Shown in pieces: positions 24,391 through 52,465 of a stretch of 64,000 bases of DNA (within the stretch, counting starts at the first letter, position 1; every line of letters starts with the position of its first letter). The notes under the pieces were generated by a model. It was given only the letters and a program-made list of their open reading frames with translations. It ran no database searches and had not been told where the DNA came from. Position numbers and translations under genes: made by a program. This DNA comes from Antitrichia curtipendula. Its lineage: Eukaryota; Streptophyta; Bryopsida; Hypnales; Leucodontaceae. The DNA lies in contig OX579638.1 in assembly GCA_951230915.1 (NCBI GenBank), positions 10,062,696-10,126,695 on the forward strand, in the 5' to 3' direction.

Positions 24391-25028
24391 CTTTCCCTCA
24401 TATATCTGTCTCCCACTACAAACCTCGCACAGTCCCTCAGAAACTACAGGCGATTGGATCCTTCCTCTCTACCGGATCCGGAAACTCTGAACTTGCTTTC
24501 CTCTCACACCTTGACAATTCCAAACAACTCCAAGCGCTTGAGGGGTGCTAAAAACATCAGAACGAGAAAGGAGAGTGGAAGTCCTAACCCCTGGGCATCT
24601 TCCTCTACTTCGTTCCTAACTGTTTAGGTTTCCCGTTTCCGCCGTAATCTTGGGAGGATCTGACCGTTGAACGGTCATACCTAATTTCCGGTAGAGCCGT
24701 TGGATTCAAGAAATGCTCTATTGGCTTCCGGTAGGTCCCGCAGCCTCTTCCGGTACGTGTCTGCATCCTATCTCCTCATTTTGAGATATTCCCGGGTACT
24801 GATCCGAATCCTCTTCCGATTCCGGTTCCCGATAAAAACAGGAAGTCTTAACTTCCTGTTAACATGATTATCTCTCTACTACTATACCTATTGAACGGGA
24901 ATGTTAATCTTGATAAGATTCCTGGTTTACACCTTTACAAACCCCAAAAAATGTACCAATACTAATTCATTCCCCCATCTTTCTAGGTATTTAGGCTAAT
25001 CTTCACATTTTGGTCTACGACAGGTGCA

Positions 25029-30671: not shown

Positions 30672-30679
30672 GGCGATGT
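30672..30679. repeat. 8-bp target site duplication, left copy
   Basis: ggcgatgt directly precedes the CAGGGTTGT terminus at 30680. The identical octamer follows the other terminus at 47189-47196. Removing the element and one copy restores an unbroken reading frame in the host exon. Confidence 0.93.
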
Positions 30680-30689
30680 CAGGGTTGTC

Positions 30690-31330
30690 CCCGTCACGTC
30701 CTGTCCGTCCGTCAGCATGTCCGGACGGACGTCAGGATTCAACTCCGGCGTCCGTCAGGATGAAATCTGGACGAGAACCGTTGACAGAGGATGAAAACTA
30801 CGGAAATGGATGGATGTTCTTCGCCGACGGGCGGCGAGCTTCCGTCGATGAGCACGGAACGATCGTGATGGACGGGTATCTGGACGGGCGGGATGGACGG
30901 GTATCTGGACGGAAAACTGGACGACCATGTGGACGGGAGGGTGGACGGGCATCTAGACAGGCATGTGGACGGGAGGGGGGGCGGTTGTGTGGACGGGTAT
31001 CTGGACGGGCGGGATGGACGGGTATGTGGATGGAAAACTGGACGGGCGGGTGGACAGGCATGTGGACGGGCGGGTGGACGGGTAACTGGATGGGCGGGTG
31101 GACGGGCATCTGGACGGGTAAGTGGACGGGTAATTGGACGGGCGGGTGGACGGGCATCTGGACGGGTAAGTGGACGGATAATTGGACGGGCGGGTGGACG
31201 GGCATCTGGACGGGTAAATGGACGGGCGGGTGGACGGGCGGGTGGACGGGTAAGTGGACGGGCGGGTGGACGGGCATCTGGACGGGTAACTAGACGGTTC
31301 TGTGGACGGAAAAATAGACTGGACGGGTGG
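30690..31330. repeat. GACGGG tandem array A at the left terminus
   Basis: The core is a 12-base unit, gacggg followed by six variable bases ending in tg, repeating from about 30868 to 31300. At 31128-31270 it forms a 48-base higher-order unit: gacgggcgggtg, gacgggcatctg, gacgggtaagtg, gacgggtaattg. Nearer the terminus a 9-bp palindrome, gtccgtccg (30703-30711) with cggacggac (30722-30730), forms a hairpin. Long open frames of W-T-G repeats arise from the 12-base period and are not genes. Confidence 0.9.
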
Positions 31331-33517
31331 GATTGGATTTTTGGCTTAAATGCCCGAAGCACCCAAATCTGGTGTTGGCAAAATTTTGAAGTTAAATAAA
31401 ACCTAACCAAGTTGCTATTTTTAGTAGTATCCAAGTTGCTATTTTTAGTAAGTTCTTCTTGAAGTCTAGTTATAGCATCAATAGTCTATTCTTAAAAATA
31501 AATGATAGTGATTTTTCGTTTCAAGACTTTGTGCAAGGGTACCCATTGCAATCTTGACTTCTTGTAGCATTGAGAGCTTTTGGAAATGTGCCTCGAAAAC
31601 ACAAGATCTTGGAGAAAAAATCACATTCAAATTTTTTTTTAATTTAAAAAAAAATATGGAGTATATTTTTAAAAGCCATAAATTGTTTGGGGTTATACAT
31701 GTTCGGCAATTTAACCTCATATTTTTGTGGTCTAAATTTTTTTTAATTTTACTTGTGAAAACTGAAAAGAGGATTGGAAGACTTCACATCATTTTTGTAG
31801 TTTTAACACCCTCATGTTCAAACATTATAATCATTTACTCTATAAGTGATATTGTTGTGTTTTAGCAACCTATGAGCCCCTAATATGTCTTGTTTGAATT
31901 TATATGGTTACAATTTTTTTGGAATTGATACGCCTAGTCACCTAATCAAAATGTTAACATTTTGTTCAATTTAGAGCACATTTGTAGAAGCTCAAAACAT
32001 GCCTTGGGCATCTAGGATTCTAGGGATTAAAGTTTGTTATTGAATTTCGAATTAGAGAAGTTGCTAAATTGATTTTACATTGACTATATGGCAAGAAATT
32101 CAAAAATATTAATCCATGTAGCCATGTAGGCCCTATGTTAATTATTGCCAAAAAAAAATCCAAGTTGGCATTTCTCCATGTTCACCTTGAAATGAAATGA
32201 AAAAAAAAAATTAGAATCTATTCAATTTAAGACTTTCAAGTATAGGATCGCCATTCATAAAGTCATTTATTTCAATTGATTTTCAAATAAATTTCATGTA
32301 GTGTGACCTTATCAAGTTAGCAATTGCAAGATATTAAACTTTGATCATTTGATTTCCATAATGCCATTTGAGAAAAAATGGAAAATGTTCAATACTTTAA
32401 TTTGTAAACTTTAGATTTAAAAATAAACATGAGGGAGTAGTCAATCAATAGTCCAACTAAAAAAACATTAAAACTAATAGAACAAAAGTTACAAAACGTG
32501 AATTATTTTTTGGTTTAATTCTAAAGACTTAAAGGAGATTTCATCAAATATGAAGCAATCAAATAATTTGTTACTTATTTCTTGCTTTGGTAAAGAATTT
32601 CCATTGTTTTTATTTCTTAGCCCCTAAAGTAACATACTCTCATTGTCCTTTCTGCCAGGGACAAAATGGATTTTCGATAGGCTCCTATGATCTCATTTTT
32701 TACTAAAACTTTTGAAAACTTTTTCATAAGAATGATAAAATAGAATGATAGATAAACTTATGAGTTTATTCATAATACAATTTCTATTCCAATCGGTGCC
32801 TAGGAGCAAAGGGTATGCCACAATAACCTCAAACAGGGGAGATCGGGACACCGGGCGGTTCAAGACTCCGGGTAGACAAAAAAATCCACAAAAAAATGAA
32901 ATACAAATTTGTATATTTTTTTTCCAGTTGGATTGTATTTTCTTTTAAATGGGAGGCTTTCATTCATCCCATTTGGATTAGGAATGGAAAAGTTATGGGT
33001 TTTTTGTGGAGCGGGCAATCCTAGCAACTTCTTAAAATAAATTTGTTTCTTTCACTTCAAATGCTAATAACTTTCAATCCATACGGTCAAACATCAAAAT
33101 TTTTTTACCACGTCATCTAAGACAAGTGTAGAACAAGATCCTTTGGTTTGATTCAAAAAATAAATTGGAAAATTTAATTCATAGGTGAACATAGCAAAAG
33201 TGGTGATTTAGGGTGGTTTGGGCCAAAAAATGGACTTCCGACTTTAGGGCTTCACCAAAAATAAAATAGAACACTCTTTTACCTACCATCTAAGCATACA
33301 AGCTTCTTCTATACTATTACAAAAAGGTCCAATAGATTACAAAAATTGACAAAGGTGAAGCAACAATACACGAGGTGGAAAGAAAACGATAAATGTACAT
33401 ATTTTATAAATCCGTTGAAGTACATGGTAAACTAATAAAGGCTTTACATAATTACATACGTTCACTTTGTACAACTTTCGGTATTTAATTCTATACATCT
33501 ATCTAGTTATACACAAT
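31331..33517. other. AT-rich spacer inside the hAT element, with R3 copy 1
   Basis: No gene. The segment 31445-31590 resembles 14395-14530. An R3 repeat occupies 32613-33256, with edges 'tagcccctaaag' and 'ctttagggc'; its right third matches 42905-43111 ('tttcaatc.at.cggtcaaac', 'ttaccacgt.at'). Confidence 0.5.
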
Positions 33518-35857
33518 CTAGTCTACATCTTCGATTACAACGCCGCGTGCTATGCTATTTCTCAAAAATCGCTGCAGTTCTTCTTGCGATTCGAAAGTCC
33601 TCAGAAGCTGAAGTGCTTCTATATCGTATCTATCATGTAAGTGCCCAAAAATGTCATTCACGAGGGCTGGCTCATGGAAGGTATTGTCTTCAATGTACGC
33701 CATTTCTTCCTCATAGCTCAATTCCCCCTCAAATCCGACTGGCTGGCCTTGAGAGTTAAACATGATGCGTTATGGATGTGGTGCGCGTATAAAAATTAAG
33801 CGTTCTGGGTCCCAATGTCCACCGGCAATCTGACCAAAATATAGTCGACGCCCTGGATCACTGTCTCCAAACACCCTCCTGATCACCTCTGTTACTTGGT
33901 TGTCACTCGTCCATGGTATGTCAGCCACCGTTCCTGCCGGGAGGTGTCGGTTGTGGTGGCCCCACTTCCAAAGCCATGTCATGTCGGACCCCCAATGTAC
34001 TCTATTACCGGGGCCCGGTAAATTTTCTTCATTGTACTCGTAATGTTGAGGCATGTGGTCTTCAAGGCCAAACGTTTTGTACAGTCGTGCATGAAATGGA
34101 GCCCTGCATTGCGCACATCTCTTTCTGGTGACCATGTGTGGAATAAGACACACGGGGTGGTATAGATGGCCACATGTACCAAGATTCCATCCACCCTCGG
34201 GGCCAAACGGTTGTTGGCACATTATACATGTTGTTCCATCTTTTACAGAATCTGGAACGGAAGGCCACACTAGTGGCGTAATGCCATCGTTGTTGGGTGG
34301 CCCGTACCGTTGGCGATCGATATTATATTGGAATTCCAAGTCTGGACGGGCATTCCAGTCGATGCTTGAATTCTCCCTATACGTTGGCAAATCATCGGTG
34401 AACATTTTTGCCACCCGAGGCCACGAGGTCAAGCCAAAATAATGTTGACCGCCATCATTGAATTCTGCAGCCACTCTCCTCACTTCACGTTGCATTTGCT
34501 CAGCCTCTTTTAGCGCTAAGATGCATGTCAACTTCATATTGCACATTTGAAGCAGCCTCTGCTCCGTCTGAAGATTTTGAACCAACTGCATATTTTCAGC
34601 ACTCAATGCGGTCATGGTCTGCTCCAAGGTTGTTCTAGCTACAGTAACCACCGCCACCTCTGCCTCGGCGTTGTTGGCACGAAGTTCCAAAGCACGCATG
34701 GCGTTTGTTAATTCTTCCACGTTTGTGCAAGTACTTCCAAGCTCTGCTTCAACTCGCTCAGCACGTGCATGCATAATATCCAATGTGGCACTTTCTGCAC
34801 TTGGAAAAGTGGATCGTGATCGTAGCACAAACTCAGATGTATTGCTCGGGCCTGGTGTGTCTTCGTCTGCACCGTATGTAGCACGTTCCACTACAAGATC
34901 GAGTGGTGGAACTGAGTCTGTGCTGACCCGCCTTTCACGCTCTACGAGCTCGGCTTCACGTGTGATGAGGCGCACATTTTCATCTTGAACGGCCCGCATC
35001 CTTGCATGATGAACTTCCAACACTGCAGCATGTTGTCGTCATGTTTCTTCTTTTTCTGCTTGCAGTGTTTGTACTAATTGGCGCAAGCGAATTACTTCTT
35101 CACCGTCAGCTTGCACTCCACCAATCACAGCTTGTTGGTTTACATTTGGACCGCTGCCCTGACCAACTTCTATCTCCATCAACTCCGTCCCTGGACGCTC
35201 TGCCAGTGGAACCACGTCCATTTGCACATTTTGGACATCATCCAATGGCACGGCAAGATTTGGTACATTGTCCAACGGCACAGTAGGATTTGGTGCAATG
35301 TGGCGAGTTCGATTTGGAAATGTATTATTCCGCGATTTGCCCAAAAAGCTGCTCCAGTCCACATCCTTGCCAAGAAAAACCTCCGCATATGCCATTTGGC
35401 ACAATGAAAGTGTCTTGTCTTTCTTGGATCTTGCCCCCCAAAGTGCCAATGATACTTCAATCATCCTCTTCTTGAAGTGCGGATGTTGGCACTGGTCAAT
35501 ATTTACCACGCCAGATTTCACGTGCACCTCGTACCGGTCATGTGGCCAATGGCGGTTGATGTTGGCCCAATCTATATATTGACGACATATCACTCTTGTC
35601 CATGGGCCATCTGCCTCCAACCACCCAGGCTTTGCCATAACCTCTTCGGCATTAAGTGTGCCCCAATCCAAGGTTGCTTTGTTTCCTCTCTTCCTTCTAC
35701 CTGGGGGTTCACCTGCAGGTACCAAACCTCCTGGGGGGTCACCTCCGGGGGGGTCACCTCCAAGTCCCAAACCTCCGGGGGGGTCACCTCCAAGTCCCAA
35801 ACCTCCTGGGGAGTCACCTCCAGGTCCCGAACCTCCTACTACATCCTCTACGTCCAT
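33518..35857 (-). pseudogene. RING-H2 finger coiled-coil protein (transposon cargo)
   Basis: One continuous frame of 780 codons from ATG 35857 to TAG 33518, broken by TGA 35039-35041 (probably from CGA) and TAA 33770-33772 (probably from CAA). Order: Gly/Pro/Asp repeats (GGDPPGG, residues about 8-45), a basic RRKRGNK patch, a conserved Trp-rich region (residues about 60-170; ICRQYIDWANINRHWPHDRY), a long coiled coil rich in Glu, Arg and Ala (about 260-450), and a RING finger near residues 544-590 with C-x2-C, C-x-H-x2-H-x2-C and C-x2-C (CIMC, CGHLYHPVC, CAQC). A Trp/Arg-rich C-terminal domain follows. RING-H2 domains usually act as E3 ubiquitin ligases; target unknown. The start at 35857 is chosen because a 'ttttacag' acceptor lies just upstream, suggesting a 5' intron. 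Array B lies 5' of it. The function within the element is not known. Confidence 0.6.
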
Positions 35858-36199
35858 TCTTGATACCTGTAAAATGACACACATGATACTGTATGCGAAT
35901 ACAATGACAATTTGCTTTGCCTTATGTTGCGTGAAGGCAACTGAAATGTGGCAAAACAATGTCAAATGTATAACACTTCCCCTCAAATTGCAGAGCGAAG
36001 CTTTCTCAAGCTCGGACAGTGCAACTCAAAAGATGAAGCACGTAAACTGTCCAAAAAAGTTTACTTATACCCCCCAATTACCGACCCGATTAGGCAGGGT
36101 AATTAACATAACATCATCATGTCCCCCCCCAAATCCAGACCGTCTAGGGCATGGAACAGCCTTGGAATGGACGGCCGATACGTCCACAGAGGTCCGACA

Positions 36200-36760
36200 C
36201 AGGGTTGGGACGCCGTCAACGGGTTCGGGGCGCCGTCGACAGGTTCGGGAAATAATTACACCGCTGCCCGAGACTTGGACGGACGGATTTTCCGTCCTCT
36301 AGGCGGTCTGCCTGTCCCCTCGACGGCCTGCCCGTTCCGTCGACGGCCTGCCCGTCCCCTCGACGGATTGCCCGTCCCCTCGACGGAATACCCGTCTCCT
36401 GGATGGCATACTCGTCTCCTCGACAGCATATCCCTCTCCTGGACGGCATACCCGTCATGTCGACGAAATACCCGTCTCGTGGACGGAATACCCGTCTCGT
36501 GGACGGCATACCTGTCTCCTCGACGGGATAACCGTCCTCTTTGACGGCCTACCCGTCTCTTGGACGGAAAGGCCGTCCAAAAAGACGGGGTGCCCGTCTC
36601 TTCGACGGCCTGTCACTGGTCGGGAACGGCCCGCCCATCCTCTCGACGGCCTGTTCGTGGTCTGGGACGGCCTGCCCGTCCTCTCGACAGCCTGTCCCTG
36701 GTCGGGAACGGCCCGCCCATCCTCTTGACGGCCTGCCGAACGTCCTGGACGGCCCTTTAA
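36200..36760. repeat. GACGG/CCGTC array B, upstream of the RING gene
   Basis: Units of about 20 bases, gacggcctgcccgtcccctc, repeat from about 36300 to 36540 with variants. Each unit contains GACGG and its complement CCGTC, so the array can fold into many short hairpins. Looser copies extend to 36755. The left edge has cagggttg (36200-36207), the same octamer as the element ends, but no partner end or target duplication was found. It sits 5' of the minus-strand RING gene. Confidence 0.85.
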
Positions 36761-39290
36761 AATTTTTATGGGTATTCTTTTGAAAACTGATTTTTTATTT
36801 TTAGTAAAAAGCAGTTTTTTTATTTCTTCATGTCATGTCCATGTTAGAAAGTCTTGTAGCCATCTTAGAAAATGTTATGACTGTTTTAAGTGGGAAGATG
36901 ACCATCATGGAAACAATTTTCTGCTGATTTGGGGTAGTCTACAAACTCTTTTGGGCTTACTGGACAGTACACTTCAAAATTTAAAAAAAAATCATATTTA
37001 ATCCAAAAAATAAAATTCCAGTTGCGTTCTTCATTTCTCACATGTGTCTTTGTATGGAAAAAATTTGATTATTTTTGCTAAAGGCAATACAGCAAATCAG
37101 TCATTCTCCCTGTCTTAGGCAGGTTTACCTTATATCACAAGGATAATGACATTAGAATCGATCATAGCATAAACTTAATTTCCATTTCATGATTTATTTA
37201 GAATGTACTAAATGTAGTAGACATTAAAAACACATTCGAAGTGCAAATCGCAATAATGAAATTTCATTTTTAGGGTCGTGTTGGGGGATTTTACATAAAA
37301 TAGGAACTAGAGAAAATGAACTTTTGCCTTATAGTTAGACTCAAACTCAGAAAATATCAATTTGGGGGATAAATTTCAGATTTAGACTAAGGAGCAACAA
37401 CTTCCCAAATCCCAAGATACACTAAAGTAGCATTTTTTTTTTTTTTTTTTTCCTAAACTCTAAATTACGCGGAGGCAAATATCGGAAAGACTACAAAATC
37501 ATTTGGATACACTTTGGAACTCAACATGGAAGGTCCCCGAAAAATGAATTGAACGCTTCCACAATCTTTCCATCTCATTGAAGTGATTGAATTGCCATCA
37601 AATTGGCACTAAATGATGTCGTTGGGCGTTCCGAGGTTGAAGTTTATTGTAAATATCTTGCAATCTACAATTCTATATAGGCAAAGTTTGTGAAATTTCT
37701 TCTGGTCAATTGAACACTACTCTAGTACTCTAGTATGAGATCTTACATACTACAAGTAGATGTGCACCTTAAAGGCCTAAAGTCCTAAACACATTCATTT
37801 TTTTTTTTTACATTCTTTACTATAGAAATGGCAATTTATTTCAGATATAGGATGCAAAAGAGACCTTGGGACTTTAGTCAGTTTAGTGGTTAACATACGG
37901 TACTACATAAGCAATTAATAAACAATCCATATGAAAAACTATAATAATTCACCGTTAGTTGCTTTATAGTTTAGAAGCCATAAAAAAAATATAGAGACCA
38001 CAAAAATGTGAAGTTCATGTACTCAATGTTGCATTTCAATTTTATTACACCAATCCACTCTTATTTGCTATAGTTACATAAACTTGAACATCAAATACTC
38101 TTAAAATTGCAACAGTGAAGAGGGTTTAGGGTTTAGGGTTTAGGATTTAGGGTTTAGGGTTTGGGATTTAGGGTATTGTCCTATAGGATTTACTTCAAAA
38201 CCTAGCATGGACCGGAAACCACGAAAAATGTTCTTCCTTTTTTTAGTTGGCATTATAAGTGCAAAACTTGATCGAGATGTAGTCTTCGAAGTTTGAATTG
38301 GAAAAAAATAGATTAATGATTTAAAATCAAAGTTTTATAAAACATATTGAAGACACCAAAAAACGGCATAACAATATCTTTAGAAGGTAAAACATTCTTA
38401 AGTTTAGATGTATAGGGCTACATTCTTTTTCTGTAATGTATGAATGGAAAGCCAAAACAATGTTTTACATTAATCAATGATATGCATATGACATATGTTG
38501 TTTAGGAGGTCTTTCACTTATTTCATAATTAACCATTTCAGAGTTTTAATCTTACTACCTTTAACTAGAGCATTTAGAGGGTGGTTTATTGTCTTGGTCT
38601 TTGTATATTTGATCCGGGCTTAGTAAGTTATTGAATGTTTGTACGTTTGAGACTTTGAGTTGAGTATATTAGTGTAGACAGGGTTTAAAATTCAACAAAA
38701 TACTAAATTGTCAGGTGCACTTACATGCAGGGAAGGATGGAATCAAAATAGAATAATTCCAAAGGTGAAATTGTTCGAGTTATAATTGATAAAATTCATT
38801 TGAATTCGAATTTGAGCCCTATAGAATATAAATTATTTTAAGGGATTGAGAGATTCTGGGATTTTTGTAAAAAAAACATTGCCCAATGCCAACAACTTTC
38901 GTGAAAATGGGTGCAATTAGAATGAATCAAATATTAACATGAACATCCAAATAGAACATTCTAGGACTGACATTAAGAAGTTTTCAATTTGACCTTCTAT
39001 GGTTTTTGCTATGTTTTTTCCATTATTTACGTGCAACAAAATATAATTCCATTCTAAATGAGCATTAAACCTTGCTTTTTGAGCATTTGAATGTCATCTC
39101 TGGTATTTATTTGTCCTCTAATTGAAACAAGTGTGAACATTAAGTTAGCACTCTTAAACTATCCACCACCGTAGTCTAATGCCCGATTGAGAGGGAGGAC
39201 ACCTGTCCTGACAAGTTCGAGAGTGCCAAACCACATAAATGAAAAATTCTCCGAACAAGGATTAGAAATGAGTTACACTCAGCCAGCACT
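36761..39290. other. AT-rich spacer between divergent cargo genes, with R1 copy 3
   Basis: No gene. The stretch 36830-37080 is an R1 repeat in the same orientation as the copies at 8.0 and 11.0 kb ('gttatgactgttttaagtgg', 'gggtagtctacaaactcttt', 'catttctcacatgtgtcttt'). A run of about 19 T lies at 37432-37451. Confidence 0.55.
38121..38174 (+). repeat. interstitial telomere-type repeat (TTTAGGG)n
   Basis: About seven units of gtttagg/ggtttag type, with three variant units (ggattta, gtttggg), lie inside the hAT element. The heptamer is the Arabidopsis-type plant telomere repeat. Short internal tracts can mark repaired breaks or promoter telo-boxes. It is far from the nearest gene start (about 2.1 kb), so a break-repair relic is more likely. 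Confidence 0.75.
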
Positions 39291-39298
39291 GTTTTGAA

Positions 39299-39830
39299 TG
39301 GCCCGCTCGACGACCTTCCCGCCCTCTCGACGGCCTTCCCGTCCTCTCGACGGCCTTCCCGTCTCTCAAAAGTCTTCCCGTCCTCTCGACGGCCAGTTCG
39401 CGGGCTGGACGGCTTGGCCCCCTGGACGGCCAGTCCGCGGGCTGGACGGCCTTCCCGTCCTTAGGCCTAAAACCGCAGACTGGACGGTCTCCCCCCGTGG
39501 ACGGCCTTCCCGTCCTCTCGACGGCCAGTCCGCGGGCTGGACGGTCTCCACCCCTGGACGGCCTTCCCGTCCTCTCGACGGCCAGTCCGCGGGCTGGACG
39601 GTCTCCACCCCTGGACGGCCTTCCCGTCTTCTCGACGGCCAGTCCGCGGGCTGGACGGCTTGGCCCCTGGACGGTCTCCCCCCTTGGACGCCCTTCCTGT
39701 CCTCTCGACGGCCAGTCCGCGGGCTGGACGGTCTCCCCCCCTGGACGGCCTTCTCGTCCTCTAGACGCCTTGGACGGCCCTGGACGCTCTGTCCGTCCTC
39801 TCGACGGCCTGTCCGTCGACGTGAATGATT
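39299..39830. repeat. GACGG/CCGTC array C, upstream of the kinase gene
   Basis: A 57-base unit beginning tggacggccttcccgtcctc repeats almost perfectly from 39498 (39498-39554, 39555-39611, 39612 onward), with divergent units either side. Within the unit ccgtcctctcgacgg and cagtccgcgggctgg are short palindromes. The 57-base period is divisible by three, which creates repetitive open frames (SPRAGRSPPLDGLPVLSTA) without biological meaning. Confidence 0.9.
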
Positions 39831-40030
39831 GGGGTGGATTGACCCCCTCGTTCGGCTTTACCAGGGGTGCATGTAAAAAAAAGCCCTCTATTTTCGGCCG
39901 ATCCAGGGTTATTATTTGATGTGATTGAACTAATTAGGGGTCTTTATGAATTCAGAATTTGCAAAAAAGGAATGGTGCGGAAAACAGGGTCGGCCCGGAG
40001 GGCTGAGCGAGGGGGTCAGTTCACCCCGGC

Positions 40031-40050
40031 CACGTGAAATGGGTATATAA
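40031..40050 (+). promoter_or_regulatory. G-box and TATA box of the kinase-like gene
   Basis: cacgtg (40031-40036) is a plant G-box core, and tatataa (40044-40050) follows 8 bases later. Transcription would start near 40075-40085. The first ATG in the main frame is at 40252. tgaccccctcg (39840-39850) and its complement cgagggggtca (40008-40018) bracket the upstream region. Confidence 0.6.
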
Positions 40051-40251
40051 GACTGTTTTTAGGGTACTTTCACCACAGTCTCTCCTGCTCTGACGGTGCT
40101 CTCTTGTCTTGGATTGGTTGCAGTCCTTGCTTGCGAGCGCGGGTGCTGGGTAGAGGCTGTTTTGAGGAATAAGGGGGGCGGTTTTTCACTTTGTGGAAGA
40201 CAAATTCCTAATTCCTTTGATTTTGATTATTTGTTACTTGTTACTGTCACA

Positions 40252-41913
40252 ATGGCTGGTCGCGATTTCTCGAAGAGAAAGGTTGATGATTGGTGGATAG
40301 GTGTTGGAGATGCACCGGTTATGGACCCGGATGCGGAATCACCAGAGCCCGTTTCAGAGGCCGTAGCTGCAGAACGATCTGTAGCTGCTGTGGAGGGCGG
40401 AGAGTCTTCGAAGGGGAAGAAAAAACAACGAAGGAGGCACAAGGCTACAAATCCGGAGAAGTGGCCAAGTAAGGGTGCAACGCGCAAACTACATGAAGTG
40501 GCGTTGGAATTTTTTGATCAGTATTCGATTTTGCAGTTGAACTCAACATACGTCTCATACGGATTACAGGGAGTGGATAAAATTAAACAAAAGTTCCACC
40601 ACATGTTCTGGACAACAATGAGCGCGGATGAGTGGCATGAAGACCGCACGAAAGAATGCTTCGATCATTGGTTGGAGTCACAAGTGCAAACGTGTATCTT
40701 CAACCTTGCCCAAGTTGCGCAAAAAATAAAAGGCTTTGAGAAGAGTGTAGTGCCCAGACAACAAGCATTGAGTTTGTTGCACAAGAAGGTGTATTGGTGG
40801 CATGATGCAGTGCGTGGATTGTCTTCAAGCAACATCCGTTCCACTCCGTGGTTTCAATGAAGTCAGAACTTGGCCTTTGGTCAACAAGCTGCAGGAGGAG
40901 TGGTTTTCCTTGAAAGAGGAGTGGTGGTGGTTCCTTTGTCTGGCCATAGCAAACAAGGGGGGCATGGGAGGGTGCGCAAAGTATGTGTTCAAAATTCAAA
41001 ACATATTCCCGAGAATATGGAATTAGCTGGGAAGTCAGCCTTGCACGTGGATGAATTGAAGAAGTCCAGGGAGAAGTTGTCCATCGAGGCATTGGTATGT
41101 CCGTGCGAGCATCTAGGGGTCATCAAATTCTTTGCTATAAATGACATGACCATGGAGTGTTATTCGCAATGGTGGAATGACGGTACTCTCGGCGCCATGT
41201 TTACCCTTGATGAGAAGAATCGAGATCCAGATGAAATTGGGGAGTTGGCTTACCATGCAACTCTCCAATCAATGCAAGAAGCCAAACGACTCATGGCATA
41301 TAGACGCAAGCGCACTGAACTTGCGTGGGCGATGATTTGCATTGTGGATGCAGTGCAACAGTGCTCTGTATTGCACAACGACATCACACCGGAGAACATT
41401 ATGCTTCATTTTCCGAATGATGATGGAAGAACCGTGTGGATTGGTCTATGTGATTGGGGAATGGGTAGCCGCATCAACGAAGAAACCCCTTCTCTTTACC
41501 AATTCAATTGTCCAAGGAAGTTTCAGGCAACCCGAGCGCAACGTTGGTGGGTGGCTCCTGAGTTGATGTACTTGATTGAAGAGACAGGAACTTCATCATC
41601 TCCTACTCGCAGGGTTAAGCCACCGTGTGTTAGTATACACACGGACGGATACTCCATAGGGAAATTGGCTATGAAGGTATGGAAAAAAGATCGCGGAAAT
41701 GTAGATATGATTCCGGACCTTACGGCATTTGGTACGTTTCAAACCATGTTGGGTGAATTGTGCAAGGCGGAGCCACTACAACGACGCCCGGTGACTGGAG
41801 TCGTGCAACATCTAAGTGGTGCTCCAACGTTTTGGACACCACCCATGGATTGCTACCGCGAGGCCCGCAAAGAACAAGACCTTCAAGAAGAGCAGGCGCG
41901 CAATGAAGATTAG
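40252..41913 (+). pseudogene. protein-kinase-like gene (transposon cargo)
   Basis: The ATG at 40252 (MAGRDFSKRKVDDWW) opens a 554-codon frame, interrupted only by TGA 40858-40860 (probably from CGA) at codon 203. The N-terminal third is acidic then basic (GKKKQRRRHK), followed by an unrecognised Trp-rich region. The kinase fold follows: a glycine-loop-like GGHGRVRKV just after the stop, a catalytic loop HNDITPENIM (residues about 375-384; the Asp and Asn are present, the usual Arg is Asn), DWG in place of DFG (about 401-403), and APE (about 435-437). A histidine and a proline stand near expected positions in HTDGYSIGKLAMKVW. This arrangement could bind nucleotide and metal, but HND and DWG are unusual. 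The upstream side holds array C and a G-box/TATA promoter. A kinase is not a standard hAT protein, so it is cargo or a captured host gene. No intron is evident. Confidence 0.6.
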
Positions 41914-43241
41914 ATAATAGTGTATTACCATGTAGTTGCAAAATTAGTGTTCACTTAGTACATGCGGTTATTATAGTATGGGCTTGAGGACATCCATAGC
42001 AATGTAGCACACTTTGTGGCTTCAATGCATTTTGTACTCATTTGGGTTTATATAAAGTTATAAACGTATTTTACCTAAACATTGAGTTGTAAGAAATTTC
42101 TTGTCTTCCCTAACTTTATCATTTAAATTGCGTGTAAACACACATCTTATATCTTTAGTACTAAAAACTTTGAATTGTATATCACTACAAGAAATTTCAA
42201 TTAGTTTTGTGCAAAATTGTAATTGTCAACATTTTTGTTGCACTTCATGCCATAAATAAGTAAAAATAGAAAAAACAATTCAAGAGATTCTAAATTTTTA
42301 GTTTTTTACAAGAGGTACAAATATCAATAGAGATTTCTAGTCAGAAAAATTTTCAATTGTTTATTTAATTTTTCATGCCCAAAACTAGTAAACAACCACA
42401 AAGAAAAGCTTGAAGTCAAATTTGACTATCAAACCAAATTTATATTTTTATTGAAAATCAGCATAATATTTTAATATTTTTCAACATACGTAAGAATTCA
42501 TTTTCTATTTATGCTTTTTTTTTTCCAGAAAATTCAATAGAAAATTGATTTTATTGTGATTTTATAAAGCTAAATATGGAAATCAAATTTTATCAATTAT
42601 AATATGTATGAGAATAATCTGAAACTGGGGCCATAAATGAATGAATGAACACAAAACATAGTTTTATAATTTTAATTTTAATGAAATTTGAAAAAAAGAA
42701 AACATACATGAAAAAAACACCACACTGTGTTATTTGGATTGCAAACATAGTTTTCAATTGCAATAATTCTTTCAAATTTTGACCTCGATTCTTGAATATT
42801 CAAAAAAAGAATTCAAAAACAATAGTGCCCCGAAGGCCCAATTTTCCATAAATCACACTCAGTGAAAGTTAATCTGAAATTGCAAAGCTAGCATTCAGAA
42901 AACTAGTTTTTTCAAGTTTGAATGCTAATATCTTTCAATCTATTCGGTCAAACTTCATGAAATTTTTACCACGTGATAAAAAACATGTGAAGTATAAGAT
43001 CTTACGGTTAGATGTTGTAAAAAACATTTTTTTCCGTATGTTGAGGCAAATGCAAGAGAAAAGACAATTTTGCGTTTTTTTTGTGTAATGACTTCGGGAC
43101 TTTAGGGGTAAACAGTTCTATGAGAATGAAAGGAACAAAAGTCATATTTCATATTAATGCTGATTTCAATATGCAAGGTATTGAGCCGCTAAAACCATTG
43201 CATTTGAAAACATGAAGACCCTATTGTCTTTTCAAAAACAT
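41914..43241. other. AT-rich spacer between kinase and transposase 3' ends
   Basis: The two genes converge here. No gene is visible. The right part (42905-43111) matches the right part of the R3 repeat at 32613-33256, ending 'gggactttaggggtaaac'. Confidence 0.5.
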
Positions 43242-46200
43242 TCAACGTCTTCCATGCCTAAGAATGCGCATAGAAGTATTTGCATTTGCTTTTTGTACTA
43301 TTGGTTCACTACCACCCATTTCTTCGAGTCGACCTTGTCGAGGCACCGGCCCCCTGTAATCACTATCTCCTGGAACCTCACCATCTTCACCTATAGTACC
43401 ACCGATGGATTCACCATCATCATTGGATGTTGCACTACCACTTTCGCTGGAGGCCTCGGAATTGCGGTTTCGTTGTGGTCGAGCTATAGAAGACAACGTC
43501 CGAAGAGGTCGTTGGCCCATTGCGTCCATAATGCCATCTGTATTGGGTCCTCCTATTTGAACTTCTCTTGAAAATGGTTGGGAAGCCGCTTCTTCCCTCC
43601 TCAGCCTTCTACGCGTTCTACTACTTACACGTTCACTAGTAGTACCTTGTGGTCGTAGACGCTTCCCTCGATTATTGGCATGTACAGGTGGCCGCAATGA
43701 AGTCGTATTTCTAGTCACACGCTGTGACACCATACCAGCCAATCGTGTACCTATCGACGAAGTTGGTTCGTGTGGACGGACGTCGGAACTAGATGGCCTT
43801 GATGAACTTTGGATTTGTAGATTTTCCAATATTGGCATTTGCCTTTGTGCAACCGAGACTCGATTTGGAGGGGCCATATGTGCTTCTCCACCTTGAGGGG
43901 GCCCTTCACTGCGGGTGGTCCTCATGGGCAATGACGGTGGTACTACTACGTCTTCTTCACGTCCTCTTTGAACGTCAACACCATCTCTTTCTATTGTGGC
44001 ATCAACTTGTACATCCATAGGGTCTGGACTTAGTAATCTCGGTGCCACAACGTTCTCGTTTGTATTGCCCCCACTTGGCCCAGCATTCCACGTTTGTGGC
44101 ATTCGTGGTGGACTTCCTTGATGTCCCTCGTAGTCATTGTCGTTGTTATCCCCCTCTTCAAAGTCAAATACGGATGCATCAATTAGAGGACGCACTCCTC
44201 CCGCCCCACGAAATCTATCAAACGGTGGCTCATCGTCGTCATTGGAACTATCATCTGAATCGTCATTATTGGGATCAGAGAGAACCGAACCACGGTCTAG
44301 ACCATCAGATTCATTTGTCATGGAATCCTCTGACATCATGTTTTCAGTATACCACCTTATCGGATTTGCTGCAGCCCTTTCTCTAAGAGTCTTGGAATTG
44401 GTATAAATGTATACCAATTCCTCAGCACGCTCTGATGTCAATCTATTGCGTGATTTGTTGTGGACAAACGAATACATGCTCCAATTGCGTTCACAGGATG
44501 ATGCAGAACACACTTGCGCGAGGATCTTTCTGGCAATCGGTGCAAGTGTACGAGCACCGGCTCCGAGAAGGTCCCACCATTCGTGAGGTTGCAAATTCAA
44601 GGCGTTTACATCAGGAAGTCCATTGAAAATGCCTCACCGATCTCTAAATGCTTGGTACTCAGACAAAGCTGAAGCAAATGCTTGATCTCCAACAGCCAAT
44701 TTGCGCAAAACTCTCAGTATGGCTTCTCTTGCCTCATTATCATCCATTAGCATGACTTCGTCAAGTAAAAAGGGATTCAATAGAGCCCCAGCGTAATGCA
44801 AATCAGTCCTGAGCATGTTCCAGCGCTTGTAGAAATCATCGATGGCGGAAATTGCATATCTCCGCTCTAATGAAAATGGTGGATCCTCCAAAGATAAAAC
44901 ATGCTTTTCCACCTTTTTCATTACAAGCCATGCCTTGTCTAAGCACGAGTGCTTGCCATCAAACTCTCGAAGAGCAATCAACACGGGCTCCACTATGTGC
45001 ACAAAGTTCAAACATTTCCTCCAAAATTCATCCGTTCGCACATATCGTCGCACATCGTTAGCTTTTCTTTGCTTTTGATTGGATGCCAATCTCCGCGTGT
45101 ACTCATTCCACTGCGGATCATGGACTGTCGATTCTATCGCTTCCCTCACCTCCACCAAACGTTCGATCATGAGGAACATGGTAGCAAAGCGTGTTTGAAC
45201 GGGATTTTTCAAAACGTGATTAGGAGAATGTCGTTGAAAGATTGCAAGTGGCATGTGATGCGTTCAAATGTATTTCACAATTGACTTGGCTTTCTTGACC
45301 ATACTTGTAATCCAATCTTGTTTTCCCCAATCTTCAAATAGAAGGTCAAGTGCATGTGCTGAACATCCTTGAAAATATATGTGTGGAAATCTATGAAGTA
45401 ACAGAGCGCCAGCAGCCAACATGTTTGCTGCATTGTCTGTACAAACTTGTACCACGTTCTATACCCCTACCTCGTCAATGTAATCACCCATGCAATTAGC
45501 CACGTAAGTAGCATCTTTGCATTCGCCTGTTGTGTCTATCGATCCAAGAAAAACCTCTCCACTTGTACATGCCAACATGGCATTCATCAATGGTCGATGT
45601 GTACGTTGTCCCATCCATCAGAGCATATTGTAACGCCATATTTGTGGATTGGTGCCCTCGTCTTCTCTGCTACAATTGCTGCCACTTCGTCTTTTGTAGA
45701 TTTTATGAGCTTTGTACAAAGTGCATGGTACGCTGGAGGTTTGTAGCCAACTCTTGATTTCGATGTTGATTTCACTGCATCCAGAAAAGTAGGATGCCTT
45801 ACTACATTGAATGGTATATTGGCTTCGTAGAAAAACTTGGCCCACTTCTTGTCAAGTACTTGCTTGTTTGATGAGTTCAGTCCTTCTTGTAGAGACAGTT
45901 GCCTCATCGATCGACTGTGGGTCAAACTAGGGTTGGGCGCCTCCGATGATCGTACTTGAGAGCTTTGCCCCCCAGTGTTTTCTCCTCCATCGTTTGCCGA
46001 GATTGAAGCATCATGTTGTTGCTCACCACGTACTACACTTGGTAGTATCGTTGATGGTGATGTCACTTCCACGTCGCGTCCAGTTCCGTGCGAAGTGTCC
46101 GTAGGTATATGTCCCCCACAATTAAAAAACATTACCTTCACGGCTGCATTGACTTTAGTGCACGCTCTCACTCCAAGGAGGGTGTCATTTCGTCTATATC

Positions 46201-46345
46201 CCAAATGGAAAAGCAACCGATCTTTTCGATAGCTTCGCAAAACTTGCAAACAACTTTTCCATCTGGCCGTAGTGTGTACCAAGGTTCCCACTGTGATCTT
46301 GCTCCACCCATTGCTCTTATCTGTCCTCCTTTACCTGCCCCTGCA
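43242..46345 (-). pseudogene. hAT transposase of the 16.5-kb element
   Basis: Minus strand, starting near ATG 46311 after an acceptor-like 'ttggtgcag'. Domains in order: a BED-type zinc finger (VVCKFCEA in one frame, then FHLG and RACTKV in the next, so a frameshift splits it near 46230); a Ser-rich linker; a DUF659-like core (AKFFYEANIPFNVV; GVTICSDGW near 45620; a second frameshift near 45600; RPLMNAMLACTSGEVFLGSI); then VCTDNAANMLAAGALL and CSAHALDLLFEDWG; then the hAT C-terminal dimerisation region (HEWWDLLGAGARTLAPIARK, CSASSCERNWSMYSFVHNKS, NRLTSERAEELVYIY) at 44590-44400. A long acidic, disordered tail follows to 43242, unusual for the family. In-frame stops are TAG 45459-45461, TGA 45264-45266 and TGA 44634-44636. 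This copy cannot make a full transposase unless the assembly is wrong, so further movement would need a helper. Confidence 0.85.
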
Positions 46346-46579
46346 CCAAAAAAAAGATTAGTATTTTGTTTGAAATGTGATGTGGAAACAACACTTGTTG
46401 CTCTCACAACAAGTGCCACCACAACACACTCTTCTTGGACTTCGCTCTACCGCAATGGTTGTATTCCAACCAAGTCATGAAAGGCAAAATCAGCAAGGGA
46501 AAGTAATCTTGAATAGGCAGAAGTCCTTAATATATACCTTGAAGCCCTCCCTAAAACCGTAAACTCTAAATCCAGCTAG

Positions 46580-47110
46580 ACGGAGTGACGGCTGATGGGG
46601 TGGACCCTAAACCCGCAGCCTTGCCAACGAAACCGTCCAAGGGGCGATTGCCCCGTCCTGTAATATTCCGGTCCAGGGGACGGGACGGTTTCCCGTCCAG
46701 AGGACGGAGAGGCCGTCCAAGGGATGGATTACCGTCCTGGAGACGAGAATTCCGTCCAGAGACGGGCTCTCCGTCCAGGGGACGGCTTACCGTCCAGCAA
46801 CGGAGTCTCCGTCCAGAGGACGGCTTACCGTCCAGCGACGGACTCTCCGTCGAGCGGAGGGCTTGCCGTCCAGTGACGGACTCTCCGTCCAGAGGACGAC
46901 TTACCGTCCAGCGACGGACTCTCCGTCCAGCAGACGGGTTACCGTCCAGCGGACGGCCTCTTCGTCCACAGACGGGCTCTCCATCCAAGAGACGGATGTC
47001 CATTTGGCGACGGAGTCACCGTCCACGAGACGGCCCGATGTCGTCGCAAAATGGACAGACTTCATCCGCGCTCCAGATGGTCCCGTCAGTATCGGCGATG
47101 GGTTGTGATG
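46580..47110. repeat. GACGG/CCGTC array D at the right terminus, 5' of the transposase
   Basis: Alternating palindromic words such as ccgtccagaggacgg and ccgtccagcgacgg, separated by short linkers (cttac, actct), recur about every 15-30 bases. Each word can form its own hairpin. It lies 5' of the transposase gene and next to the right end. Established parallel: maize Ac transposase binds AAACGG-type subterminal repeats. Here the shared ACGG core suggests a binding-site array, by inference. Confidence 0.85.
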
Positions 47111-47143
47111 CGTCAGGACGCGTCAGGACGGACGCGTCATGAC

Positions 47144-47177
47144 ATCCGGACGTGAAAAGCCCATGTCACGTCCGGAT
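47144..47177. repeat. subterminal 12-bp hairpin next to the right end
   Basis: atccggacgtga (47144-47155) and tcacgtccggat (47166-47177) are exact reverse complements with a 10-base loop, 11 bases inside the right end. The degenerate element at 27.9 kb keeps acgtgaaaagcc from this hairpin, so the structure predates both copies. Confidence 0.8.
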
Positions 47178-47188
47178 AAACAACCCTG

Positions 47189-47196
47189 GGCGATGT
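47189..47196. repeat. 8-bp target site duplication, right copy
   Basis: ggcgatgt, identical to 30672-30679, directly follows the inverted terminus acaaccctg ending at 47188. Confidence 0.93.
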
Positions 47197-50100
47197 TGCC
47201 ATTCATTGCCACATCATCCTTCCCGCAACAATTCTGGAGAACATCATCCTTGGCTACGTTGACGCCAACTGCTTTGTGAGCAGGAAGGAAGTGGAACGAG
47301 AACCTGGGTTTAGAACTTCCACTCCGAGATTTGACATAAAGGGACATGTTGAAACGCATAGTCTGCACAAAACACAAAATTATATCAAATGACAAAAAAA
47401 AATCAAATTTGAGAGTAAAACCTCCAAATGAAAGAATGGTTTAGGATTTTACCATTTTTGAGATGTCCGAGGCTAGAGCCAGGTGAAGCCTATTCATGAC
47501 AAACCAGTCAATGTGTAAATGATAACCAAATGATTTGGCGAGACTAACAACGGATGACTTGACGGGTCGGCTGTATGGGTACATAACAAGAAGACCACCC
47601 CCGTCGTGTAGAAAGGTATCAGCAAAGTCAAAGACTGCTTGGAGCTTTTCCTCCGAGAACTGGTTCCAGTATGGAACGGAGGCTGGTGGATTGGAAATGC
47701 CTGGAACAAGTAGGCCCTCTGGAACATCAACAACAATCAAGTCGACAGCGGGACACTTAGCCAAAGCGTTGTCAAAGAATCGATCCTTACCGGCAGCATG
47801 CTGCACACATTAAAAGATGGCGAAGAAAATGAAAAAAACTAGACGGGATTTAATAAATACGAAAACAAGATTAGGGCAATGTCTAGAAACGTGTAAATAA
47901 TCCGTACAAGTGTACAAGCAAAACAGATAATGAGCAGGAAAAGAAATCACCACCTTCTTTAGAAATTCCACAACAAGATCGATGACGCCAGAAGAAGGAC
48001 CATTTTTGGTTCCAAGTAAACTAGTGACGGACTCATTTAAGATGCACTGATCGACAGGAGCCACCGAATCCAAATCAACAACATGGACCGGCAAGCCACG
48101 CATCAATCGCTCTTGGGTGAGCAAAAATCCTGATGAAGACTCCTTCATAGGGCCGTCACTCGTCGCTTGTTCGGCATTTGGTGTCTCGGTTTTCCTCTTC
48201 TTCCCCTTCTGCCTGCCCTTAGCCTCATCTTCCTTGGCCTTCTCTTCTTGTCGTAGTTTCTTCTTCTGTGTTGTTTCCTCCGTCTTCCTTGTTGCCTCTA
48301 TCATTTTGACCTCCTTCTTCTGGTCTGATATTTCACGCCGTCTAATGGCCTTCTTCCGTGCTTCATCCTCCATGCTAGCAAATTCGTCAAACTCAGGCTC
48401 TACCACTGCACTTTCCTTGATATTGTTGAAAAGAGAAAATTCCTGGGGAGGGATGTAACCCAGGCTGCACTCCAAATACCAAGCACCGGCTTGGAGGTGA
48501 CCGCTGGTCCAGTTCTTCACCTGAATGGCTAAGAACATACAGTCGGGAGAAGAACGATCGAGCCATGTGTTGAGGAAAGGCGGCAAATCAGCCTTGGCGA
48601 TGGCTCTCTTTGCATACAACTCAAACTTGAAATACCTGAAAGATCATGAACAATTCAGATAAACAGATGAGTCAAGGAACAACAATCTCAACACAATATC
48701 CAACTAAACCAAGAGAAGCAATGTGGATACCTGTAAATTATCCGCTTCAAAACAAGATTAGAGCCTTTGAAGTCATTAAACGAGTCTGACTTCTTGAAGG
48801 CGTCAGCCCCCTTGAAGACTCCCACGAACGCATGCTCCCACAACTTCATCCTCCAACCTTCTATGTACTCTTGAATAGACTCAGGCTCCGCATCCGCATC
48901 CATATGTAGCTTAATGTTGTCGGATCGGATTATGCTGTCAAACATCTCACAGGCTTTATCTTCAATCTATAGAATTGAAAAGAGATTAGTTGAACATGAT
49001 TCAAACTAATAAAGGAAATAAAAACAATGTTAAGGAAAAGCAAGATGCATACGGACGATATACCGCAGCATACCAACAGGCCTTGCGATAAGAAAGCATT
49101 CAGTTTGTCGTCATTTGCTGGACGTTGTGGAAATCGCCGGGCCTCACGGGTCGGAGCGGATGAATTCATCCATTTCAGCCATTTCACTTTGTGGTTGACA
49201 TGAGCATTTGATGTAGCTATTAGTTGTAGCTTGTCCAAAGTCAATTCGGGAACTGTAAACAGACTCCAATGCCGTTCGATCTACAAAGGAAAAAAACCAG
49301 TTTAGCAAACTCAGAAGTCATTGGAAATGACTCACTAAAGGATTATGAACTTGGAGCATGGAATAGCGCAGCAAAACAACAAAATAACGATGTGGAAGAA
49401 ATGAAATAGAGAAATACCTCCAATAGCCATTCATCACCTAACACAGGGTTGGCCACGGCAACAATCTTTGAAAGTTTTTTGTAGAGATTCCCCGTGGCAT
49501 CCCTGGTAGAAACCCGTATAGCTGCCGCCACACCTTCGTTCGTGACCTCCTCTGCAGGTGTGTCCTCGTGATACTTGCGGACAGCCAAGTCCGAAGCTAC
49601 CGCAATCTCTTGCTACACAGAATATTTCTAAGTCAGCACATTAGAAAATTTGTGGTAGATGAGCACAGAAAATGGAGTTTAACATGTAGTAAACTGCGGA
49701 GACAATAAAGACCAGAAGCATGAAAAAGTATCTTACCTGAAAAATGAATGATGTGAAGACCTCCAGAGGCATGGAGTACCAGATCTTCCGTGTGTTTTGC
49801 TGGCAGGTCTTCTGTTCCTCTTTGCTAAGAAGATCATTGAACTTCTCAATGGGCAAGGAATCGTACTTTCGAACTCGATACAATGTATGCACCAAGTTCG
49901 TCTTTACGTGCGAATTTTCTGTGTGCCTGATGAAAAAACAAGTTCAAGTTCAATTTCCAGTGTACCTAAAGCAAATAAGCAGAAACAGTAAATCATGCAA
50001 AGGGAGAGAAACTCACTTGTTAATGTTGTGCATGACCTGCATCGTGGCTGCAACTCGTCCTTTTGTATCCAAGATGATTGAATCGACACATATGTGCTAA

Positions 50101-51029
50101 TCCAAATCATCACCATGCAATCGAGAAATATGACGCATCCATGCTATTCGTCTGTAGTTGCCGTCACACACGTAGAATTTTGCATCTACTGGGATTTGCA
50201 GCTCTGAAAGTTTGGCCAGCTGGACATTGAAATCATCATTCACAATGTTCCAAAGGGGACCCCAGTCGACTTTCTCTGCATTTGAGAACACACCTGACCG
50301 CCCGTCTTTGTCTGAAACCGACACGTAGAAAACACGAGCTCCCTCCTCATATCCATGGACGAACTCCTGTTCCAATTTAATCAAGTCACAGGATAACGTA
50401 GGCCTCACCATAGGCATTGGAACCAAACGGCACAAAGGGATTCTCATGCGAGAAAGATTAGTCGGAGCAATACGCAAACTGGATATTGTGTTTACAAAAT
50501 CCAACTTCTGCGTTGCCCGAATGGCATCTTCACTTTCCTTCAATTCTCCTGAAACTGGTGCACATCCGTCGCCTATGGCCCCATTTGCCTCATCGGATCC
50601 CAATATTTGTGGTTGATCCTCCGACAGACTGTGATCAGATAAAGGGGCCGCTGATGCTAAGATAAGAAGACCCTCCTGAATATACCAGCAGAAGGTTGTA
50701 AGGATTCAAAACGAACCGAATGAATCATATTGACTCAACACATGTGTATTAAGGAAGACAAGGATTACAGGAAAGATTGAGTTCATTACCGGGTGAACAC
50801 ATAGGAATTATCATATGAAGACACAACTTCAGCCTTACCGCGCCTTCTCGGAGACGAGACGACCATGACAATACAGCAGACTATGACTCGGTCCAAACAT
50901 ATACCTCCGCGATAAATGGGTTGTCTTCAACCATATTCGCTTCTGTTGCCTCCACCATCTGAGAATTGACCAAGTAAAAACAGGGGAGTTAGTTCAAATC
51001 GGAAGTCCAGATCATGTACAATCAGGAGT

Positions 51030-52465
51030 TGGTAAGGTTACATAGTCACTCGGGGACGAGAAGAGATCCCGAGACGCCCCCCTCTGCACTCCGTCACTAG
51101 TTGAACAACACGACACACACAAGTCTCTTGAGATCACGTGGCTGCCTAGCCTCTCTCGGTCACGAGAAATGGATTTCACGCCACCACCTGCACCACTGGT
51201 CGCTTGATGTAGAACTCCGCAGTGGATTCGAACGTGAAGGGGTGAGAGGATTGTCTCGTCCATGAGAGAGTGATACAGCGTGAGGGGACCTGGACCTTCA
51301 CCACGAGTTCACCTCGGTACCACCAGTCTGAGAATCCTCTCTCGTGGACGAGAGCACTGGAGGGACTCACATCATTTGAGATATGTCGAACGCTACAACG
51401 CTTGCACACACAAGGCCGAAGGAGAAAAAGAATACCAGATCACGAATGGGGAGCTACATTCTCCCTCTCGTGGACGAGAAGGGACCCCGCGACACCCTCC
51501 TCTGCACTCCGTCACCCGCTGCGTCAGCTAGTCTGGGATCACGAGTGACCCAAGATGACGCGCCTGCCAAGCCTCTCTCGGTCACGAGAGAGATGGATTT
51601 CCGGCCACCACCTGCACCACCACTTGGCGACGGGCCTGGTTGTCGGAGGTAGAAGTCCGCAGTGGATTCAAACGTGGGGAGGACAAAGACTGTCTCGTCC
51701 ACGAGAGAGTGATACAGCGCGTGGGTTCCTAGACCTTCACCACGAGTTCAACTCGGTTCCACCAGTCTGAGATTCCTCACTCGTGGACGAGAGCACTGCA
51801 GGGACTCACATCTTCTGAGAGATGTCGGACGCTACGCCGCTTGCATACACAAGGCCGAAGGAGAAAAAGAATACCAAACTCAAGACCGGGGAGCTTCAGT
51901 ATCTCTCTCGGGGACGAGAACTGATCCCGCGACGCCCTCCTCTGCATTCCGACACCTGCTGTTTCAGCCAATTAACGATACATGTGTCCGAGATCACATG
52001 GCTGCCTAGCCTCTCTCGGTTACGAGAGAGATGGATTTCAGGCCTCCACCTGCACCACCACCTGGGCGCGGGACTGGTCGCCCGAGGTAAATCTCCCCAA
52101 TGGCTTCAAACGTGAGGGTTAGAGAGGACCGTCTCGTCCACGAGAGAGTCAAACATCATGCGGGGACCTGACCTTCACCACGAATTCACCTCGGGTTGGC
52201 CAGTCTGAGAATCCTCTCTTAAGGACGAGAGCATTGGAGGGACTCACATCTCTTGCGTGATGTTGAACGATACACCGCCTACATACACAACGACGAAAGA
52301 AAAAAAGAATACCAAACTCAAGAAAGCGGAGATACATTCTCCCTCTCGTGGACAAGAAGGGATCCTGCGACGCCCTCCTCTGCACTCCGTCACCCACTGC
52401 TACATCCAATAAAAGATACAAGTGTTTTGAGGTCAACTGTCGGTCCTTTCTCTCTCGGTCACGAG
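51030..52465. repeat. about 430-bp tandem repeat in the third intron of the methylase-like gene
   Basis: The phrase ctctctcggt(c/t)acgaga recurs at about 51151, 51573, 52011 and 52450, spacing 422-439 bases, so there are just over three units. Each unit also holds ctctcgtggacgagag and gtctcgtccacgagag, both near-palindromic. Reading frames in several phases are open but repeat with the unit and are not genes. It fills most of the intron 50959-52488. Confidence 0.8.

Follow-up and report, generated by a model that had tools for sequence, protein, structure and literature searches.

Introduction

hAT elements normally carry only a transposase; the VANDAL elements of Arabidopsis, whose VANC protein is not known to be a kinase or a RING protein, belong to the Mutator-like superfamily and not to hAT. 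In one study, the Ac/Ds system of maize is described with a hAT transposase that binds AAACGG hexamers near both ends, 8-bp duplications, short inverted ends, a clustered motif ending in ACGG near both ends and short non-autonomous derivatives (PMC3260210). A study of VANDAL21 reports extra genes beside the transposase, and an anti-silencing protein that binds dense, element-specific tandem motif arrays in non-coding DNA, whose units are gained and lost between copies (PMC5735166). Pack-TYPE elements (Pack-hAT) combine transposon ends with extra coding DNA, and fungal Starships are large DNA elements with genes other than a transposase. Here, we describe a hAT element that carries a protein kinase gene and a RING-H2 gene beside its transposase gene. 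It lies in a stretch of 64,000 nucleotides of the Antitrichia curtipendula genome (GCA_951230915.1, contig OX579638.1, here C6:10062696-10126695), which is called the window throughout. A kinase- and RING-bearing hAT was not found in literature searches of open-licence PubMed Central (PMC) papers, which is no proof of its absence from print. The overall best explanation, to which we assign a probability of roughly 0.6, is a mobile three-gene hAT in which kinase and RING are lasting element genes that act in trans for the element.

Like Ac/Ds, the element has an 8-bp duplication, short terminal inverted repeats, a clustered motif ending in ACGG near both ends, a short non-autonomous derivative and a hAT transposase, here with the hAT C-terminal dimerisation domain. 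However, Ac is 4.6 kb long with one gene and a typical hAT spans a few kb with a transposase only, whereas this element has ~16.5 kb and three genes, and its motif is GACGG, in long arrays that are also internal. It resembles VANDAL elements in its extra genes and in its dense arrays, which differ in motif number between copies. Its transposase, which matches the hAT dimerisation domain, is not of the VANDAL type (VANA), and the anti-silencing that was shown for VANDAL is for the three-gene hAT what we infer. Starships, unlike this element with its hAT transposase and fixed gene set, use a tyrosine recombinase, reach up to ~700 kb and have variable cargo.

Results and Discussion

Structure of the element

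The ends, the duplication and the three genes are placed as follows.

30680..47188, no strand assigned: whole hAT element, 16,509 bp, delimited by its ends and duplication and by further copies with the same ends and colinear content
30680..30688, plus strand: left terminal inverted repeat CAGGGTTGT, 9 bp
47180..47188, minus strand: right terminal inverted repeat, reverse complement of CAGGGTTGT, 9 bp
30672..30679, plus strand: left 8-bp target-site duplication GGCGATGT, single copy at empty site L089
47189..47196, plus strand: right 8-bp target-site duplication GGCGATGT, single copy at empty site L089
33518..35857, minus strand: RING-H2 gene, 779 codons, in-frame stops at 35039-35041 and 33770-33772, homologues P0001-P0003
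40252..41913, plus strand: protein kinase gene, one in-frame stop at 40858-40860, homologues P0004-P0012
43242..46311, minus strand: hAT transposase gene with BED-like N-terminus (by eye), DUF659 region and hAT dimerisation domain, three in-frame stops and two frame breaks

The original prediction, made from the window alone, had named the inverted CAGGGTTGT ends, the perfect 8-bp GGCGATGT and the three genes. The ends and duplication are supported by their coordinates and by genome-wide copies, and the genes by Pfam and homologues; what it omitted is that all three genes are broken. Within the window, the 9-mer occurs once on the plus strand and twice as complement (27915 and 47180), and GGCGATGT has one additional occurrence (53211). 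Because of these further occurrences the CAGGGTTGT pair in the window alone is not proof; the genome-wide copies are.

The window copy is decayed, with stops in all three genes. Recoding of TGA as a sense codon was considered and rejected, since TGA, TAG and TAA are all present as stops and open homologues exist. The hAT dimerisation domain (PF05699) scores 36.6 bits in the window copy, over the Pfam cut-off of 21.4 (37.3 bits in P0013), the kinase is over its cut-off as well (34.9 vs 31.7), and the RING match is weak and under it (zf-RING_2, 23.2 bits vs 27.3). The RING protein consists of an N-terminal domain of ~100 residues, a predicted helical middle part and the C-terminal RING, in which the eight zinc ligands (C553 C556 C571 H573 H576 C579 C590 C593, in C3H2C3 order) are invariant in P0001-P0003; its Protein Data Bank match is RING finger protein 24 (E 2e-5). 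In the kinase, the catalytic Lys, Glu, HxD, Asn and DxG residues are kept in 28 to 31 of 31 copies, and the N-terminal part is predicted to be helical by a structure model. A putative RNase-H-like core of the transposase gives a weak profile match to Hermes structures (E 0.007), with candidate acidic residues for the D, D, E set recognised by eye only. Likewise, its BED-like Cys/His pattern was recognised by eye only, and P0013 has no Pfam BED match.

For each protein query, ~8,000 candidates out of 5.8 billion clusters were scored. Among the matches listed are three RING, nine kinase (on contigs up to 10.9 kb) and 101 transposase relatives; one of the transposase relatives, a distant one, comes from the annotation of the moss Ceratodon purpureus, and none of the nine kinase and three RING relatives bears the name of a host gene. 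Identities are 66, 54 and 49% for the RING homologues P0001, P0002 and P0003 (the window gene forms one frame over residues 3-788 of P0001), 81 to 31% for the kinase homologues P0004-P0012, and 79-82% over two long pieces between the transposase and P0013.

Recurrence in the genome

The genome searched was the window's own (400.2 Mb, 303 contigs). It includes a chloroplast-type rbcL on a 115-kb contig, which together with the TTTAGGG-like run inside the element and the Ceratodon transposase relative points to a green-plant host. Gene counts refer to the best-scored places, that is 79 of 1427 candidates for the kinase, 57 long places of 2497 for RING (57 of 64 listed matches, with seven short pieces left out) and 45 of 1840 for the transposase. 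With up to three mismatches, the left 30-nt end was found 453 times and the right 30-nt end 560 times, compared with 0 for the reversed-pattern control of each. Several listed right ends have G and not C as the last base of the 30-mer; perhaps they form a separate subfamily.

Among the listed ends (100 left, 85 right), 28 exact-end pairs lie within 45 kb. One pair spans 356 bp, 15 span 15.7-17.2 kb, seven 18.3-20.6 kb and five 32-37 kb; none of these exact-end pairs falls between 0.36 and 15.7 kb. The 8-bp flanks were checked for 20 of the 22 pairs at 15.7-20.6 kb: they are identical in 13 and within one mismatch in 17, and none of 380 mismatched pairings used as control agreed. A second full copy of 16,337 bp has identical flanks (ATCTGGAC), all three genes and ~95% DNA identity to the window copy in long matches. 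In a third fetched kinase copy the left end is present, the transposase match is split by 3.4 kb and the right end lies beyond the fetched stretch. Sixteen exact duplications (13 from the checked pairs, the window copy, a C6 copy and the 356-bp form) have T at position 2 in ten cases and A at position 7 in eight, in agreement with the Ac-type preference.

Gene order and spacing recur together with the ends. A divergent RING gene lies upstream within 30 kb of 26 of the 79 listed kinases, 24 of them at 3.96-4.67 kb, where 0.7 pairs were expected; four further same-strand kinase-RING pairs stem from two inverted pairs of copies. Downstream of 37 of the 79 an exact right end was found, at 6.6-7.5 kb in 31 cases; two kinases have one in the wrong place. 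A convergent listed kinase lies 1.3-2.3 kb from 25 of the 45 listed transposases, and these 25 pairs include at least 10 complete RING-kinase-transposase triples (33 of 57 RING places compared). Counted per gene, 26 of 79 kinase, 13 of 57 RING and 7 of 45 transposase places listed are without internal stops. Pack-hATs, by comparison, are non-autonomous carriers of captured gene pieces without a transposase, whereas here the unit includes a transposase gene and its additional genes show conservation from copy to copy.

Inverted copy pairs ~31-35 kb apart were seen at G000:C8:23.62/23.65 Mb and C5:32.73/32.76 Mb; the kinase loci fetched from them have an identity of 99.3-99.6%. They could reflect local transposition, duplication or an assembly effect.

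Joining the two flanks of the window element gave a 300-nt query with 40 matches. Of these, 35 extend over 296 nt or more with 93-99% identity, two correspond to the halves in the window itself and three are partial. The two empty sites that were fetched are gapless and identical at 296/300 and 295/300 positions, the second with one base change inside the 8-bp target. The original prediction had proposed a recurrent three-gene mobile unit, to be sought as other loci with the same ends and genes and as an empty site. Both were found, and the 22 exact-end pairs, the 13 of 20 identical flanks and the fixed gene order and spacing bear the proposal out. The window element is almost certainly one copy of a high-copy mobile three-gene unit of 16-17 kb.

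It is extremely unlikely that separate neighbouring elements or an assembly join only resemble one unit. The three of 20 checked pairs without matching flanks speak for this, and the recurrence of the same size and gene order, the 17 of 20 duplications within one mismatch and the gapless empty sites speak against it. Two separate elements with their own ends in the window copy were rejected, as no such end pairs are among those listed, and an assembly artefact was rejected by the matching flanks of other copies and the gapless empty sites. Closer pairs of inverted ends, which the original prediction had named as a sign of separate elements, were not found for the window copy and close relatives of it in the list of 28 exact-end pairs. 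A possible exception outside this list is a diverged C5 copy (see below).

The 356-bp form (L088, G000:C6:8057560-8057955) retains the two ends and one GACGG array, and its 8-bp flanks are identical (GCTCGCAT). This derivative suggests that ends plus array suffice for movement in trans.

GACGG arrays and the origin of the unit

Four arrays of GACGG/CCGTC, absent from the original account, are found in the element. The control was base-shuffled sequence (500 times).

30691..31322, plus strand: left subterminal GACGG array, 39 matches (shuffled mean 2.4, maximum 9, for 30680-31330)
36140..36748, no strand assigned: internal GACGG/CCGTC array 5' of the RING gene, 35 matches (shuffled mean 2.5, maximum 8, for 36120-36760)
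39329..39813, no strand assigned: internal GACGG/CCGTC array 5' of the kinase gene, 31 matches (shuffled mean 2.6, maximum 8, for 39290-39840)
46579..47127, no strand assigned: right subterminal array 5' of the transposase gene, 36 matches (35 in 46580-47188 vs shuffled mean 2.1, maximum 8)

The element contains 150 occurrences of the motif, compared with 44 in the remaining 47.5 kb of the window, and four of the Ac-type AAACGG. Both internal arrays have counterparts at the equivalent place in four other copies examined. In the window copy, the observed/expected ratio of CpG is 0.98-1.27 in the arrays, 0.46-0.52 in AT-rich spacers and 0.71-0.83 in the genes. A plant-type TTTAGGG-like run is also present inside the element. 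By analogy with the Ac hexamers, the GACGG arrays adjoining the ends are probable transposase-binding sites.

The internal arrays also bear on a composite origin, in which a RING-bearing hAT (from the left array to the array at 36.1-36.7 kb) was fused with a kinase-plus-transposase hAT (from the array at 39.3 kb to the right end), and the product is now mobilised as a single unit, the outer ends being the only functional ones. The two internal arrays resemble the end arrays and flank an AT-rich spacer (36.76-39.29 kb, G+C 0.32). A diverged copy on C5 (L038/L039, G000:C5:9471456-9489456), in which kinase and transposase are present, holds at the expected RING position a 4.1-kb stretch with CAGGGTT-type ends and GACGG arrays near both, but the flanks of this stretch are unlike (AGTCAACT, GTGCGTAG). 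In metagenome data, kinase P0007 and transposase P0016 share the longest contig figure of 6480, which suggests one common contig, possibly with the RING gene outside it. A second coincidence of this kind, 2127 (P0010, P0092), must be chance, since that contig is too short for both. Against a composite origin, CAGGGTTGT ends were not found at the internal arrays of the window copy (CAGGGTT, a shorter form of the end, is present at 36200 and 39904, but its complement is absent from the element apart from the right end), and the listed exact-end pairs leave the range of 0.36 to 15.7 kb empty. Moreover, these internal arrays are also present in a diverged copy on C218, so any fusion must be old. 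We regard a composite origin as unlikely, though not negligible.

The C218 copy contains RING, kinase and transposase in the same order, the same right end and three arrays, with 74-87% DNA identity in aligned pieces; the fetched stretch did not reveal a left end.

Selective constraint

The ratio of non-synonymous to synonymous substitution (dN/dS), obtained as simple pairwise counts, was compared for 31 kinases (the window copy and 30 of the 79 listed). It is 0.34 between subfamilies (150 pairs), 0.36 within the diverged set (15 pairs) and 0.50 within the window's subfamily (300 pairs). Measured against the C218 copy, it is 0.26-0.29 for the kinase, 0.36-0.38 for the transposase and 0.50-0.53 for RING; the kinase value relative to the C5 copy is 0.36-0.39. 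For copies of the window's subfamily compared with each other, values of 0.69-0.84 (RING) and 0.70 (transposase) were obtained. Judged by these ratios, the kinase is constrained as much as the transposase between subfamilies, and RING less. Our reading is that an inserted copy decays in a nearly neutral manner, whereas in the spreading lineages kinase and transposase remained similarly constrained and RING less so. Kinase and RING have very probably been kept by selection. The original prediction had called them cargo, which is probably too weak a word for a kinase constrained like the transposase.

Passive capture, by which a host kinase and a host RING gene are carried along without benefit, would be in line with the ability of hAT elements to capture gene pieces (Pack-hAT) and with the weak constraint on RING. 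However, the kinase constraint equals that of the transposase, many copies are without internal stops, the few relatives among the matches listed (nine kinase, three RING) include no named host gene, and the kinase recurs together with a partner domain in a second family. We consider passive capture improbable.

A second kinase family with a partner gene

The most distant kinase relative, P0012, was used as query and led to another multicopy kinase family, with 85 matches listed of 1422 candidates (two of them pieces of one gene), many of which are stop-free. No overlap with the hAT-kinase places was seen among 30 of the 79. At one locus (L092/L093, G000:C10:23625000-23640500) the kinase shows 62% identity with P0012 and 30% with P0004, and an open partner gene (506-codon frame) lies 1.7 kb downstream on the same strand. 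The N-terminal domain of the partner matches that of the RING protein (36.5% over 104 residues, E 1.7e-18), and an upstream gene on the opposite strand shares this domain as well (E 1.5e-11). No match to the transposases known from this analysis was found in the 15.5 kb of this locus. An open reading frame in the window (23893-24468, minus strand) resembles, by eye, one beside the second-family kinase, and is probably another repeat-encoded protein.

With 89 partner places listed, a partner lies downstream on the same strand within 12 kb of 63 of the 85 listed second-family kinase matches (0.1 expected), 61 of them at 1.15-1.9 kb; none lies on the opposite strand within 12 kb among the matches listed. 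By sequence comparison, kinase and partner recur together in two deeply diverged repeat families. As no RING was found for the second family's partner in the 15.5 kb of this locus, the pair may have in common a signalling step between kinase and partner rather than ubiquitin transfer, which the hAT would have gained in addition. It is tempting to speculate that kinase and partner (the shared N-terminal domain, with or without RING) make up a counter-defence module of two genes that has passed between two or more unrelated mobile-element families within one plant-lineage genome, a signalling/ubiquitin system against host silencing that would be read out through CpG-rich motif arrays. At present, we consider this module rather doubtful.

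Proposed mechanism

In the explanation that we prefer, that of a mobile hAT with kinase and RING as lasting element genes, the transposase, which is open in other copies, would cut at the CAGGGTTGT ends and insert with an 8-bp duplication. The transposase or another element protein would bind the GACGG arrays; because arrays of one motif lie 5' of all three genes and at the ends, a single element protein could act at each of these places. The RING protein might act as an E3 ubiquitin ligase and target a factor of host silencing, or else the transposase, for removal. The kinase, if active, might regulate the RING protein. Both would then serve the element by countering silencing or by tuning the transposase. 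That kinase and RING are element functions with a role in host silencing or transposase control is a tentative proposal, with the odds somewhat against it.

Several observations weigh against the preferred explanation. The totals of 453 and 560 count ends and not full three-gene copies. Three of the 20 checked end pairs have unrelated flanks (five or six differences), and a C4 copy has both ends but unlike flanks. No RING match was found in the 18-kb stretch of the diverged C5 copy, nor a RING pattern in the 15.5 kb of the one partner locus of the second family. The RING score of P0003 only just reaches the Pfam cut-off, and those of P0001 and P0002 are under it, and the Pkinase match in P0004, P0007 and P0010 covers only the catalytic part. 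A RING dN/dS near 0.5 means weak constraint, and the dN/dS counts come without a significance test from pairs that are not independent.

Insertion site and neighbouring features

When the element and one copy of the duplication are removed, one minus-strand frame is open across the junction. Part of the interrupted exon is held by this open reading frame:

47123..47440, minus strand: methyltransferase-like by eye; the true exon starts right of 47188, and its other part lies left of 30680

The original prediction had read this as a host exon rejoined on removal of the element. The frame does run through the junction. The exon stretch is a high-copy repeat found at 35 other places and not a plain host exon. 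The element has thus inserted into a member of another repeat family, of which the interrupted exon is a part. The interrupted gene (window 47189-50705, minus strand, and left of 30680) is apparently intron-bearing and repeated, and an open reading frame beside it (50097-50705) has a weak DndB match (E 0.022). Elsewhere in the window, tandem repeats lie at 10087-10596 (36-bp unit, 14.2 copies, 100% match) and 51195-52425 (438-bp unit, 2.8 copies, 80% match).

Conclusions

hAT elements are treated as single-gene parasites. If the kinase and RING genes are under selection, DNA transposons of this kind can encode regulators, as VANDAL does, and the linked second family suggests that kinase and partner may be a reusable module. 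With its many natural copies and empty sites for comparison, the element would allow direct study of how silencing is evaded or adjusted by a DNA transposon in a green-plant lineage.

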